Shown here piece by piece: positions 30,984 to 35,165 of a DNA stretch of 39,267 nucleotides. Under the pieces are notes generated by a model that searched no databases, was not told the origin of the DNA, and saw nothing but the letters and a program-made list of their open reading frames with translations. Position 1 is the first letter of the stretch. Every line of letters starts with the position of its first letter. The translations under genes were made by a program, and so were the position numbers. Location of the stretch: IMG/VR virus record IMGVR_UViG_3300036846_000888, positions 1 through 39,267 of that record; one strand, written 5' to 3'. The stretch is from a virus.

Positions 30984-31160
30984 ATGGCAAGTGTTGGAAG
31001 ACAACCCAAGGGGCAGGCGAAACGCGTTGATACGAACGAAATCACCGCGCCGAAGCCAACCCCGATGACCGGAAGTCCTGCTAACTCGATCACGAGTGAA
31101 AAGGAAACCGGGTTTGATCCACCGATCGCTAACACGATCACAGCAGCGAAGGAGAACTAA
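30984..31160 (+). CDS. Small hydrophilic protein (58 aa)
   Basis: A 58-codon gene with AAGGAGG 5 nt upstream of ATG 30984 and a TAATG junction with the endolysin gene. The product is basic at the N-terminus and rich in Thr, Pro, Asn and Ser with NSIT/NTIT repeats, probably disordered. Strong ribosome site and perfect packing argue for a real gene. Function unknown. Confidence 0.7.
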   Translation: MASVGRQPKGQAKRVDTNEITAPKPTPMTGSPANSITSEKETGFDPPIANTITAAKEN

Positions 31161-31492
31161 TGGGAGTCGTCCGGACTAAAGAAGGGGTTTTGTACACTAA
31201 GATTGCTCCTGGTGGGCATCGAATGCTTAGTGCGATTGATGCTTGCGCTTCGGAGCAAGAGCAGGACATCACTGTTACAAGTGCGTGTGACGGAACTCAT
31301 TCCGGTCCGGACGATCCTCATCATAGGGGTGAGGCGTATGACATTCGTACCCACGATCAGGCTGATAAGCACGGGCTGTTGGCGAAGCTCCAGGCCAAGT
31401 TAGGTGAACGATTCTTCCTCTGGATTGAGGATGAAGGACAACCAAACGAACACATCCACATGCAGGTGAAGAAGGGAACGCAATATCCTTGA
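31160..31492 (+). CDS. M15-type peptidase endolysin
   Basis: A 110-aa single-domain protein with the zinc-peptidase signature of the VanY/D-alanyl-D-alanine or L-Ala-D-Glu peptidase family: HHRGEAYD (H54-x2-G57-x-A59-x-D61) and EHIHMQ (H98, H100). These residues bind zinc and cut peptidoglycan peptide bridges. It lacks a wall-binding domain and signal peptide, so it needs a holin for access. Small membrane proteins follow in the same cassette. Start overlaps the previous stop (TAATG). Confidence 0.85.
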   Translation: MGVVRTKEGVLYTKIAPGGHRMLSAIDACASEQEQDITVTSACDGTHSGPDDPHHRGEAYDIRTHDQADKHGLLAKLQAKLGERFFLWIEDEGQPNEHIHMQVKKGTQYP

Positions 31493-31502
31493 AGGAGGCA
31501 AT

Positions 31503-31673
31503 ATGATTCTAGCGGTTAGTTTGTCAGGTTTAGTTGCAATCGTTGGCGTTTTAATGTATGCGTTAAGCGCCAATCCAAAAGTGATGGAAATCGGACGGAT
31601 TTCATTCCACGCTGGGTTGTTTACATTCCTACTTAGCGTAGGCGCGATAGTATTAACTGTTCCGCACCGGTAG
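31503..31673 (+). CDS. Two-segment membrane protein, holin candidate (56 aa)
   Basis: A 56-aa gene with AGGAGGCAAT before ATG 31503. Two hydrophobic segments (residues 2-21 and 38-53) are separated by a short polar loop (NPKVMEIGRI), ending in His-Arg. Size, topology and position directly after the endolysin suggest a holin or holin-like protein; similar short two-helix proteins are frequent in podovirus lysis cassettes. Its stop codon lies in a tandem 9-bp repeat. Confidence 0.7.
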   Translation: MILAVSLSGLVAIVGVLMYALSANPKVMEIGRISFHAGLFTFLLSVGAIVLTVPHR

Positions 31674-31691: not shown

Positions 31692-32993
31692 ATGCCTGAG
31701 AAGTTCTTGTTAATGTCTGGGGGAGGTGACGGCTTGGGCCTGGCCCTGAGGCTCAAGCAGGAAGGTCACGGGGTTGCAGTGTGGATTAGGGAAGGCCGGG
31801 CGAAGAGCAACTACGACGGCTTGCTGCGTAAGATCACCAAATGGGAGGAAGCACTTGACCCTGATACAATCGTTATCTATGATAGCAACGGAGGTGGGCG
31901 TACCGCTGACCGACTTCGAGCTAGAGGGCATTTCGTTTTTGCCGGGAGTACGTTCGCTGACGGACTCGAACTCGATCGAGATACTGCTCTCGGTTTCATG
32001 CAGCAGGCCGGGATTAAAACCCCTGAGGCCAGAACGTTTCGTAGCTGGGAAAAAGCGAAGGAATATGTCAAAGAGCGAGACACTCGACTTGTGTTTAAGG
32101 CAAGCGGGGATACCGGAAACTACCTTGGAACATATTGCTCCTACGACGCGGGCGACCTTATTGAAATGCTTGACTACTTTGCTGCAATTACCAAAGGGAA
32201 AGGTAAGCCGGAATTCGTCCTACAGGACTTTATCAAGGGTTGTGAGATCTCTACCGAAGGTTGGTTCAACGGGGAAGAGTTTATGTCCCCGTGGAACCAC
32301 ACGATAGAGAGGAAGCAGTTGATGAATGATGGGCTTGGACCATCCGGTGGATGCGCGGGAAACATTGTGTGGTTAGCAAAGGAAACCAACCATGTTATCG
32401 AAGAAGGAATCGCTGCGATGGCTCCTATCCTGCGTGATCATGAATACGTGGGCCCCATCGATCTCAATTCAGTTGTTAATGCAGAGGGCGTATGGGGGCT
32501 TGAGTTCACCCCGAGGTTTGGCTACGATGCCCTCCCGTCACTTCTTGAGCTTGTGGATGGAGATCTTGGGTCAGTTATCGCCTCGATGGCGAAAGGGGAA
32601 CGGCCGACTACTCTACCACTGCTCGATAAGAAAGCGGCCGGAGTGCGAATTAGCATCCCACCCTACCCAAGCGAACATCACAAGCCGGATGAAGGTATAC
32701 CTATTCGAGGATTGACACGGGAGGACAGGAAGCATTTGTACTTCTTCGATGTGAAGTTGAATGATGAGAACTCGTTAGTGTCAACCTCAGCGTTTGGAGC
32801 AATCGTCACGGTAACCGGGATTGGGGATTCAATCGGTCAAGCAATGGAAGGACCTATGGAAATAGCCAAGCGGGCAAAGATCCCGCAGAAGCAGTACCGG
32901 ACGGATCTTGAAGGAGTCTTTATCAAAAACTTCTTGGAGCTGGATGAGTTGGTTAGAAAGGAGGATGTGAGTGTTACACTGGATAACGGCTAA
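31692..32993 (+). CDS. PurD-like ATP-grasp ligase
   Basis: A 433-aa protein, about the length of bacterial PurD (phosphoribosylamine-glycine ligase). N-terminal domain with SGGGDGLGLA (residues 9-18, where PurD has GSGGREHA), then FAGSTFADGLELDRDTALGF, an ATP-grasp domain with LVFKASG (K136), LQDFIKGCEIS (178-187), PWNHTIERK, GPSGGCAGN (216-224) and LEFTPRFG (270-277), and a C-terminal domain as in PurD. In PurD the last motif is EFNCRFGDPE; here Asn, a magnesium ligand, is Thr (T273) and DPE is altered. This suggests a changed substrate. ATP-grasp enzymes join a carboxylate to an amine. It lies in the lysis cassette with AGGAGG before ATG 31692. Real substrate unknown. Confidence 0.8.
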   Translation: MPEKFLLMSGGGDGLGLALRLKQEGHGVAVWIREGRAKSNYDGLLRKITKWEEALDPDTIVIYDSNGGGRTADRLRARGHFVFAGSTFADGLELDRDTALGFMQQAGIKTPEARTFRSWEKAKEYVKERDTRLVFKASGDTGNYLGTYCSYDAGDLIEMLDYFAAITKGKGKPEFVLQDFIKGCEISTEGWFNGEEFMSPWNHTIERKQLMNDGLGPSGGCAGNIVWLAKETNHVIEEGIAAMAPILRDHEYVGPIDLNSVVNAEGVWGLEFTPRFGYDALPSLLELVDGDLGSVIASMAKGERPTTLPLLDKKAAGVRISIPPYPSEHHKPDEGIPIRGLTREDRKHLYFFDVKLNDENSLVSTSAFGAIVTVTGIGDSIGQAMEGPMEIAKRAKIPQKQYRTDLEGVFIKNFLELDELVRKEDVSVTLDNG

Positions 32994-33249
32994 TTGGGTT
33001 GGGATTTTGGCGTTCTTGTCCACATCGTGGACCGCGCTGAACTTAGTGTTCAACCGGATTGCGAACTCGTTGCCTGCACCGACAGCGACGTCGACCCCGA
33101 GTTATACGTGGTGGTTTCAGTTTGCGAACAACCTCGCGTTGAACACGGAGAGAGGGAAGAATCCACCTCGGGTGGAAAATAGTCCTAACTTCGAAGCAGC
33201 TGCCGAGGCGTATATGCAACGGAAGCTAAACGGAGGGCAAAAAACATAA
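32971..33249 (+). CDS. Small membrane protein (92 aa)
   Basis: GTG 32971 is preceded by GGAGG at 6 nt, within the end of the ATP-grasp gene. One hydrophobic segment near the N-terminus (WITANWVGILAFLSTSWTAL) is followed by a Pro/Thr/Ser-rich linker, an aromatic patch (YTWWFQFANN) and a basic tail. This is a single-pass membrane protein of the lysis cassette; a spanin, holin partner or anti-holin role is possible but unproven. Confidence 0.6.
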   Translation: MLHWITANWVGILAFLSTSWTALNLVFNRIANSLPAPTATSTPSYTWWFQFANNLALNTERGKNPPRVENSPNFEAAAEAYMQRKLNGGQKT

Positions 33250-33251
33250 AC

Positions 33252-33455
33252 ATGAACTTCCAACTGTTTGAGTCGGAGGGTGCGAAGCTGGTAGTCATTT
33301 TGTTTATGCTGTTTTGGTTATCGGCCATCGCGATGGTTATGCATCAAACCGGGCATGACCCGCAGGAAACTACCAAGGTGTTGTTAAGCAACGCGTTTAC
33401 CAGCTTGATGACGCTTCTGTTAGCCAAACTGAGTACGAAAGGGGATAAGCAATGA
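33252..33455 (+). CDS. Small two-helix membrane protein (67 aa)
   Basis: A 67-aa protein with hydrophobic segments at residues 12-31 (VVILFMLFWLSAIAMVM) and 43-59 (VLLSNAFTSLMTLLLA) and a Lys-rich C-terminus, a class-II-holin-like layout. GGAGGG lies 13 nt before the ATG, so translation may be coupled. It is the second holin-type candidate of the cassette. ATGA overlap with the next gene. Confidence 0.6.
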   Translation: MNFQLFESEGAKLVVILFMLFWLSAIAMVMHQTGHDPQETTKVLLSNAFTSLMTLLLAKLSTKGDKQ

Positions 33456-33865
33456 CGTTTCTCAAGAAGTTGGGTACGGTACTTGCTCAAGGGATAGCCA
33501 TGGCGACTGGCCTTTGGCCTTTGGTCAGCGGGTTTTTCGGCTCCAAGGCGCAAAACACAGGAGGCGTGGTAATCAACGACTTAAGCCAGATCGGCGGGAT
33601 TGTTGTTCAAGCCGAAGCGTTGATTCAGGGTCCAGGAACAGGTCCGCAGAAGCTCGCTAACGCCACTCCGTTGATCGCTGGGGTGGTTAAGACATCCGAG
33701 ATGATCAGTGGGCATAAGATCGCTAATGAAGCCCTGTTCCTTGAAGGATGTCAGGACTATACCAACGGTACGGTGAAGATCCTTAACTCTCTCGACCCTG
33801 GGACGATCCAGACTCAAGGGAAGCCGTTGCCGGCTTTGCCTGCTTCGGCGGTGCCTGCGGCGTAA
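33452..33865 (+). CDS. Hypothetical lysis-cassette protein (137 aa)
   Basis: A 137-aa protein with a hydrophobic N-terminal helix (residues 9-29) and a mostly helical, Gly/Ala/Ile-rich middle, ending in a Pro/Ala-rich tail. The first segment may insert into or touch the membrane. ATG 33452 overlaps the previous stop and follows AAAGGGG. Its 3' end overlaps the convergent GroES-like gene by 83 bp. Not recognised. Confidence 0.55.
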   Translation: MTFLKKLGTVLAQGIAMATGLWPLVSGFFGSKAQNTGGVVINDLSQIGGIVVQAEALIQGPGTGPQKLANATPLIAGVVKTSEMISGHKIANEALFLEGCQDYTNGTVKILNSLDPGTIQTQGKPLPALPASAVPAA

Positions 33866-34160
33866 CGTTTCGAATCCGGGAGATAATCTCCCTACCTTCA
33901 AGACACCGGTATTGCTTCCCCGAGACTTGCTGGTAAACCCCAGCATGGCTCGCGAACGAAACAACGTCCCCGATCTTACACCGTTCTTGGATTAGTGGAT
34001 CATCGCCAACAGCGACCACAATCCCGGTGGTAGGTCGAGGGACGTTTTCGTTGTTAACGACGATGGACAGTCCAACTGCTTCGGCGCGTTTGACCAAGCT
34101 CACCTCGGGTTCTAACTCGTCGACAAATATGCGATCCCCCATCGGTGTGATTTCAAGCAT
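33783..34160 (-). CDS. GroES-like co-chaperonin
   Basis: ATG 34160, preceded by GGAGGAGGACGTA, gives 125 aa; GroES is about 97 aa, so there is a 25-residue Pro/Ala/Ser-rich tail. The Cpn10 pattern is clear: ITPMGDRIFVDE (residues 4-15), a mobile-loop-like stretch ending in SIVV (about 32-35), TTGIVVAVG (44-52), CKIGDVVSFASHAG (61-74) and CLEGREIISRI at the end. Phage co-chaperonins (T4 gp31 type) cap host GroEL so that capsid or other phage proteins can fold. It is the last gene of the leftward arm, convergent with the lysis cassette. Confidence 0.82.
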   Translation of the reverse strand: MLEITPMGDRIFVDELEPEVSLVKRAEAVGLSIVVNNENVPRPTTGIVVAVGDDPLIQERCKIGDVVSFASHAGVYQQVSGKQYRCLEGREIISRIRNVTPQAPPKQAKPATASLESGSSQGRES

Positions 34161-34414
34161 TACGTCCTCCTCCAAACAATTGGGTTTAACGCCTTGATCG
34201 GGCTAGGCGGTCCTGCATACGGCAATTTCTCGGAGCTATAGACAAGGAAGTCCACGGCGCCATCCTCAAACTTCAACTGCGCGTATGACTCGTGGATGAT
34301 GAACGTTCCCGTGTCGTCTTCGAACAAAGAGTGGTCGCTGTGAAGGATGCGAACCACCCGCGCCATTTTATCCTTTACCTTTACCGTGTCACCCAGCTGT
34401 ACTTGTGTCGACAC
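34160..34414 (-). CDS. SH3/KOW-like small protein (84 aa)
   Basis: A GTG start at 34414 with GGAGG 7 nt upstream, and a TAATG junction with the GroES-like gene. The 84-aa protein begins QVQLGDTVKVKDKMARVVRI, a strand pattern typical of SH3-like beta-barrels (KOW type). It resembles the 95-aa protein at 35482-35769 in this opening. The role is unknown; such folds often bind nucleic acid or partner proteins. Confidence 0.6.
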   Translation of the reverse strand: MSTQVQLGDTVKVKDKMARVVRILHSDHSLFEDDTGTFIIHESYAQLKFEDGAVDFLVYSSEKLPYAGPPSPIKALNPIVWRRT

Positions 34415-35165
34415 CGCACGCCTCCAGGTTGTCTAGGATAACTTCGTGGTCTTGCTTGCGGCAATCACCTCGGGAGAAATCAATCGGTACTCCGTGTTCA
34501 TCCCACCAAGCTCGGGCTGTTTTGCCGTTGATTCGGTTATCATACCATCCTCTCCATACAGGAGCGCTAGAGTCAATGCTGGTTACCCCTACCTTCGCCA
34601 AATAACGTAGTTCACACACCTCCCCGTTAACCATCCCGAAAGCATGCAGCTTAATCCCAGGATGCTCCGCTCGAACCAGCCGAGCGAACTCCACCCTAGC
34701 AAGAGGGTTATCGCTGATAGCGTAAGCCAGGGCCCGAGGAATCCCAAGCCAAGTAATGCGACGGTCCTCAATCGCATCGTGATATCCCCTAATGAACCCA
34801 GATAGATCACCAGGTAACGCCTGCGGGATGTAGAGCCAGGAGACTTTTGGGAACTTGTCGTAGAGTTGGTCGAGGTAGAATTGAGCGGCGTAATATGTTT
34901 TTGTCCACCGTTGGAGAAGGAAGTCGGGAAGGACAACGACTTGTGGGTTGTAGAACGTGATTGATTTTTCGTAGTGCTCGAGGGAAGGAAGATCATGGCC
35001 TTCGTAAGCACCGTTGTCAAGAATGATAGTATCACCATCGATACGTCTCCTTTTGTAAAACTCCATGTATGATACATCCGTGATTGTTTGCAACACCAGG
35101 TGGGTTTTGCTCAACGTTGCGTAACGCTGGAGCCCCACGGTTGGACTGATTATACAAAATTCCAC
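34389..35165 (-). CDS. tRNA-guanine transglycosylase-like (DpdA-like) enzyme
   Basis: A 258-aa TIM-barrel-like protein starting at GTG 35165. The TGT catalytic pattern can be followed: LDNGAYEG (D50; TGT has TDSGGFQ/Y), VVLPD (D81), YIPQA (Q115), LGIPR (G141), and SIDSSAP (D198) in the place of the TGT nucleophile motif (MFDCVLP). The Cys3-His zinc site of canonical TGT is absent. DpdA enzymes are TGT relatives that put preQ0 into DNA to evade restriction. Other queuosine-type genes are not seen in the window. Substrate, DNA or tRNA, is unproven. Confidence 0.65.
   Translation of the reverse strand: MEFCIISPTVGLQRYATLSKTHLVLQTITDVSYMEFYKRRRIDGDTIILDNGAYEGHDLPSLEHYEKSITFYNPQVVVLPDFLLQRWTKTYYAAQFYLDQLYDKFPKVSWLYIPQALPGDLSGFIRGYHDAIEDRRITWLGIPRALAYAISDNPLARVEFARLVRAEHPGIKLHAFGMVNGEVCELRYLAKVGVTSIDSSAPVWRGWYDNRINGKTARAWWDEHGVPIDFSRGDCRKQDHEVILDNLEACGVDTSTAG

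Follow-up and report, generated by a model that had tools for sequence, protein, structure and literature searches.

A late-module phage ATP-grasp protein, probably an active carboxylate-amine ligase, defines a new sister family of PurD

PurD, the GAR synthetase, carries the signature R-[LF]-G-D-P-E-x-[EQIM] (PS00184, in the form given by PMC3261824). Proteins that resemble PurD without sharing its role have been described in haloarchaea, where two 'extra' PurD-like proteins, Hlac_1553 and rrnAC0307, were judged not to be GAR synthetases and no function was proposed for them (PMC3261824). Phages encode ATP-grasp enzymes of the R2K type, whose predicted role is protein modification (PMC7824862, PMC4431377), and viromics studies have reported viral 'purD' or GART genes as purine-boosting, one ocean survey finding them enriched in viruses over cells. 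Our literature search returned no paper on a phage PurD-like gene beside an endolysin or holin.

Here, we analyze such a gene in IMG/VR virus record IMGVR_UViG_3300036846_000888, whose whole length of 39,267 bases we call the window. Positions 1-24 of the record, ATGATACGGCGACCACCGAGATCT, read as an Illumina P5 adapter, which we take to be an assembly artefact. The gene (31692-32993, plus strand) starts with ATG behind a good ribosome-binding site, the Shine-Dalgarno sequence AGGAGG, and encodes a protein of 433 residues that a sequence-only reading of the window had described as a full-length PurD-like enzyme with the domain order of PurD. Comparisons of sequence, profile and predicted structure bear this description out: phmmer aligns residues 4-407 with PurD in the PDB (E 8.5e-19), a profile-profile comparison of the family with PurD covers residues 1-415 (prob 100, E 1.1e-44), and an AlphaFold2 model with a pLDDT of 95.6 retrieves PurD over the whole chain in its 15 best PDB matches, with biotin carboxylase, CPS and PurK next, eight orders of magnitude behind. 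Pfam GARS_A scores 38.2 against a cut-off of 27 (1.7e-9) and GARS_C scores 23, below its cut-off of 34.8; the Pfam search of the protein gave no match to the PurD N-domain and none to R2K or RimK-like families. The TIGR00877 model of PurD yields 78 bits and does not reach its curated cut-off of 288, and a fold search of the viral structures in BFVD recovered no close PurD-fold match (best TM 0.49). The fold, conserved Lys, hinge, acidic metal ligands and Arg expected of an ATP-grasp enzyme are all in place, and codon changes relative to L199, the nearest relative, indicate purifying selection (dN/dS ~0.15). The ORF encodes an intact ATP-grasp protein that has the PurD fold in full but not the motifs that define PurD; it is not a lone degraded copy.

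Across 100 diverse members of the family, 14 positions are invariant: D64, E93, R96, K136, Q178, E206, K208, G220, G254, D257, N259, E271, R275 and G277. In the profile-profile alignment, K136 (32097-32099; plus strand, like all motif coordinates given here) pairs with the Lys of PurD VIKADG, Q178 (32223-32225), at the hinge, with the hinge Glu of IEEF, and E206-x-K208 (32307-32315) with the Asp and Lys of QDHKR, while R96, in the E-L-D-R stretch of residues 93-96 (31968-31979), pairs with the Lys of LEGSK. The two departures from PurD picked out by the sequence-only reading were read correctly. Residues 9-18 (31716-31745) are SGGGDGLGLA where alignment with E. coli PurD places the GNGGREHA loop, and residues 271-280 (32502-32531) are EFTPRFGYDA where PurD has EFNCRFGDPE. 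The first lacks the Arg of the GGREH loop, which in PurD is taken to hold the phosphate of PRA, and in most members of the main viral group its residue 13 is acidic. The second, as RFGYDA, does not match PS00184, the Asp of RFGDPE being replaced by Tyr in nearly all family members and by Trp in L001-type phages.

E271 and R275 pair with the Glu and Arg of PurD EFNCR, and T273 occupies the position of its Asn. The Asn ligand is thus literally lost, as had been claimed, but this does not amount to a lost metal site. E. coli PurT (SEVSPRPH; E279-V-S-P-R) and PurK (NELAPRVH; E-L-A-P-R), both active enzymes, also lack this Asn, and the family has gained an invariant D257-x-N259 (32460-32468) on the preceding strand, where PurD, with LYAGLM, has neither residue. 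With this gain and this precedent, the metal site seems to have been rebuilt, not abolished. Because the ATP and metal residues are invariant and the GGREH loop is changed, the nucleotide and acyl-phosphate machinery appears to have been kept and the amine-substrate site altered; the 14 invariant positions, the Asn loss paired with the Asp257/Asn259 gain, and the example of PurT and PurK together predict an active ligase.

An IMG/VR scan with the single window protein sequence recovered nothing, and the entry point to the family was a tblastn match of 29% in Manatee Spring phage MW202796. It led to 49 close relatives of that phage, and profile-guided scans then brought the number to 211 and finally to at least 575 IMG/VR loci, of which 99 lineages were sampled. 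Relatives of the window protein include L199 (77-79% identity) and L200 (72%). The other tblastn matches in 'phage' records that we examined (three examples) encode canonical PurD, the contigs being bacterial or unverified, and so serve only as PurD references. Three 'phage' records (CAKLQH020000004.1, MT839088.1 and OR846843.1) hold canonical purD from bacteria, with purH adjacent in one of them, and look like bacterial DNA within phage collections. In WFUY01000379.1, binned as a Thermoflexales bacterium, a terminase adjoins the ligase, which groups with phages; this is probably a viral contig inside a MAG. A motif scan of GTDB genomes confirmed at least 553 cellular loci, the best 80 of which come chiefly from Patescibacteria and DPANN archaea; Planctomycetota, Omnitrophota, Balneolota and others contribute a few. 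The distribution is patchy, for only 3 of 59 genomes drawn from one such phylum have a member that scores at family level, and the idea that the ligase is a universal marker of Patescibacteria was ruled out.

The family is phylogenetically distinct from PurD. In an IQ-TREE analysis of 41 family members and 12 PurD sequences (8 of them from genomes like those that carry the family), with PurK/PurT as the outgroup, the two form separate sister clades (support 100/99 or better, 100% of bootstraps), and a FastTree of 140 rows agrees. Nesting within normal PurD, the arrangement that the sequence-only reading had named as fatal to its own proposal, is not seen. Profile scores divide the groups likewise, with true PurD above 315 bits in TIGR00877, cellular family members at 92-136 and the window protein at 78, and with the family profile giving 384 bits to a phage member and 127-153 to PurD. 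A separate PurD above the cut-off is present in 10 of 22 family-bearing genomes, and 10 others have neither PurD above the cut-off nor PurM above 27 bits, single absences that are soft because genome completeness is not given. The 25 phage records searched (39-52 kb) yielded neither PurM nor PurF. PurF makes the substrate of PurD, so a lone phage PurD would rely wholly on its host. The separate clade, the coexistence with PurD and the lack of partners in phages all uphold the earlier view that purine synthesis would be an odd role for this gene.

In the window, the ligase gene follows an M15-like peptidase, a probable endolysin (31160-31492, plus strand; HHRGEAYD ... EHIH; Pfam HH_signal 8.5e-5, the M15 reading being motif-based), and a 56-residue holin candidate with two hydrophobic stretches and no family match (31503-31673, plus). 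It is followed by a 92-residue protein with no family match (32971-33249, plus), which overlaps its end by 23 nt, and by a 67-residue membrane protein with one strong hydrophobic segment (33252-33455, plus). All five genes lie on the late strand; beyond them come convergent genes, beginning with a GroES-like co-chaperonin (33783-34175, minus; Cpn10 5e-9). Sixteen lineages have GroES-like proteins encoded 3' of the ligase, and in MW202796 the portal gene has one as a neighbour. The 'lysis cassette' of the sequence-only reading describes the window's clade well, with its M15-like peptidase, 56-residue protein and small and membrane proteins, but not the family, since in other phages the gene adjoins terminase or portal and lysis is not its sole context. 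The gene is on the virion-gene strand across the 99 viral lineages, in many of them in the company of genes for terminase, portal, capsid and tail, and the trait shared by the phage contexts is a late-module position.

Within the wider clade to which the window belongs, the gene immediately 5' of the ligase frequently encodes a cell-wall enzyme, of kinds that are unrelated to one another (M15, Tlde1/YkuD, SleB-type hydrolase, small transglycosylase-like, lysozyme), and relatives of the M15-like peptidase occupy position -1 or -2 in eight lineages. Where a hydrolase is recognised, it stands at -1/-2 in 22 of 27 loci, with 4.0 expected for a random same-strand gene, a count inflated because the seed genes were picked from that very position. 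A Pfam tally of small upstream neighbours is less biased and consists mostly of cell-wall families (Tlde1, Hydrolase_2, M15, YkuD, lysozyme), the four commonest all being cell-wall enzymes. In 67 of the 99 lineages, no recognised hydrolase lies within -3 to +2. A family of ~130 residues with an HExxE motif (IHELxE) and no Pfam name seen occurs just 5' of the ligase, in 13 lineages, and is possibly a metallo-hydrolase in the endolysin position.

Neighbours of the cellular genes are mostly unrelated to each other. A conserved operon partner was rejected, as neighbours vary and only GNAT and SET genes recur. LPG_synthase_C-like or Acetyltransf_6/FemAB-like genes lie at most three genes away in seven cellular loci, and SET genes are also present in three of these. 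Clusters of SET, LPG_synthase_C-like and Acetyltransf_6 genes adjoin the ligase in Woesearchaeota, Parcubacteria and Aenigmatarchaeota. The LPG_synthase_C and Acetyltransf_6/FemAB-like groups, which have the GNAT fold, include aminoacyl-transferring enzymes, and such neighbours weakly fit amide-bond chemistry.

Several readings of this protein have to be weighed. A diverged but genuine GAR synthetase, acting as an auxiliary metabolic gene that boosts purines during infection, would account for the whole PurD fold and the retained C-terminal RxD and would agree with the purD or GART labels that viromics papers give to viral matches, but it has to contend with a separate clade, alterations in the GGREH loop, the GLAAGKGV loop, QDHKR and RFGDPE alike, a score far under the 288-bit cut-off, and genomes in which true PurD is either present as well or missing together with PurM, besides the 25 phages in which PurF and PurM were not found; we regard it as most improbable. 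Purine synthesis by the family is very unlikely, and filing the ligase as PurD fails several defining tests. The altered PurD motifs and the late structural-module position could be those of a catalytically dead relative retained as a structural or regulatory protein, but nucleotide and metal positions that stay invariant from phages to bacteria and archaea would not be expected of a dead enzyme, which makes this improbable. A role in modifying DNA or nucleobases, with 7-deazaguanine carboxylate as a conceivable substrate, draws on a 258-residue protein at 34389-35165 (minus; no Pfam match), whose model (pLDDT 94) matches tRNA-guanine transglycosylases, the DNA preQ0 insertase DpdA and CBASS Cap10, and which is kept in 15 of 15 phages of the window's subclade. 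This TGT-like protein may serve deazaguanine modification of DNA or protein, in a record with no QueC or PTPS/QueD family match; in other lineages no such gene was detected close to the ATP-grasp gene, and in the window it lies on the other strand, in the early module. The link is limited to one subclade, and we hold a DNA-modifying role for the ligase to be highly improbable.

We conclude that the gene probably encodes an active ATP-grasp carboxylate-amine ligase that belongs to a separate family, sister to PurD, and is expressed alongside the late genes for morphogenesis and lysis. Its predicted working as an ATP-grasp ligase is well supported, and activity through acyl-phosphate chemistry is, we infer, very probable. 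ATP would be held between the two ATP-grasp lobes, where a carboxylate would be phosphorylated to an acyl phosphate, and attack by an amine would then yield the amide, ADP and Pi; the second substrate would sit in the re-modelled N-terminal domain and would be something other than 5-phosphoribosylamine. The sequence-only reading had offered a wall component, a nucleobase used for DNA modification or a signalling molecule as conceivable substrates. For the target, an envelope component or a protein is favoured: an envelope component handled near lysis enzymes is our tentative guess, a virion or host protein a more doubtful one, and a free small metabolite is unlikely. Modification of a virion or host protein late in infection, by tagging it with an amino acid or a peptide, would suit the gene's place amid those for terminase, portal, capsid and tail, the GNAT-fold and SET genes near cellular copies, and the predicted roles of R2K enzymes (PMC7824862, PMC4431377), but the surroundings of the ligase yielded neither a conserved target nor a conserved tail peptide, and its nearest fold relatives use small molecules, so this reading, too, is doubtful. 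Rather unlikely as a whole is the more specific picture of a widespread phage family whose members, as one step of the lysis programme, join an amino acid or amine to some component of the cell envelope and are encoded next to interchangeable endolysins; if true, such ligation may tune lysis timing, wall cleavage or superinfection. To our knowledge, DPANN archaea have no peptidoglycan, so a murein-specific substrate cannot suit the whole family unless its function differs among members.

More than 1,100 detected loci in phages, Patescibacteria and DPANN archaea carry the PurD fold without, on present evidence, the function of PurD. As the family does not appear to make purines, a database label of 'purD' on such genes would be misleading, and the published conclusion on viral 'purD' would need revision if those calls belong to this family. 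The invariant residue set and the family profile allow its genes to be told from PurD immediately, and a single full-length enzyme opens the substrate question to direct test.

Set beside the known systems, the ligase shares with PurD (TIGR00877; PDB 2yw2, 5vev, 1gso) the whole fold and domain order (TM 0.69-0.81), the ATP lysine, the hinge, the metal Glu with the Arg that follows it, and the C-terminal RxD; it differs in the GGREH loop, the glycine-rich loop, QDHKR and RFGDPE, in the gained Asp257 and Asn259, and in forming a separate clade without purine-pathway partners. With PurK and PurT it shares a metal motif of the form Glu-x-(Ala/Ser)-Pro-Arg, without Asn and with an acid on the preceding strand (EFTPR and D257 in the ligase), but it does not group with them in the tree, where both fall clearly outside the PurD-plus-family clade, and its fold match to PurK is much weaker (E ~1e-16). 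R2K/RimK-like peptide ligases resemble it as phage ATP-grasp enzymes with proposed conjugating roles, yet they have a different architecture, with no match to the PurD C domain and a best viral fold TM of 0.49. By their description, the haloarchaeal proteins Hlac_1553 and rrnAC0307 are like the ligase in missing the Asp of RFGDPE and in having a divergent N-terminal loop (PMC3261824).
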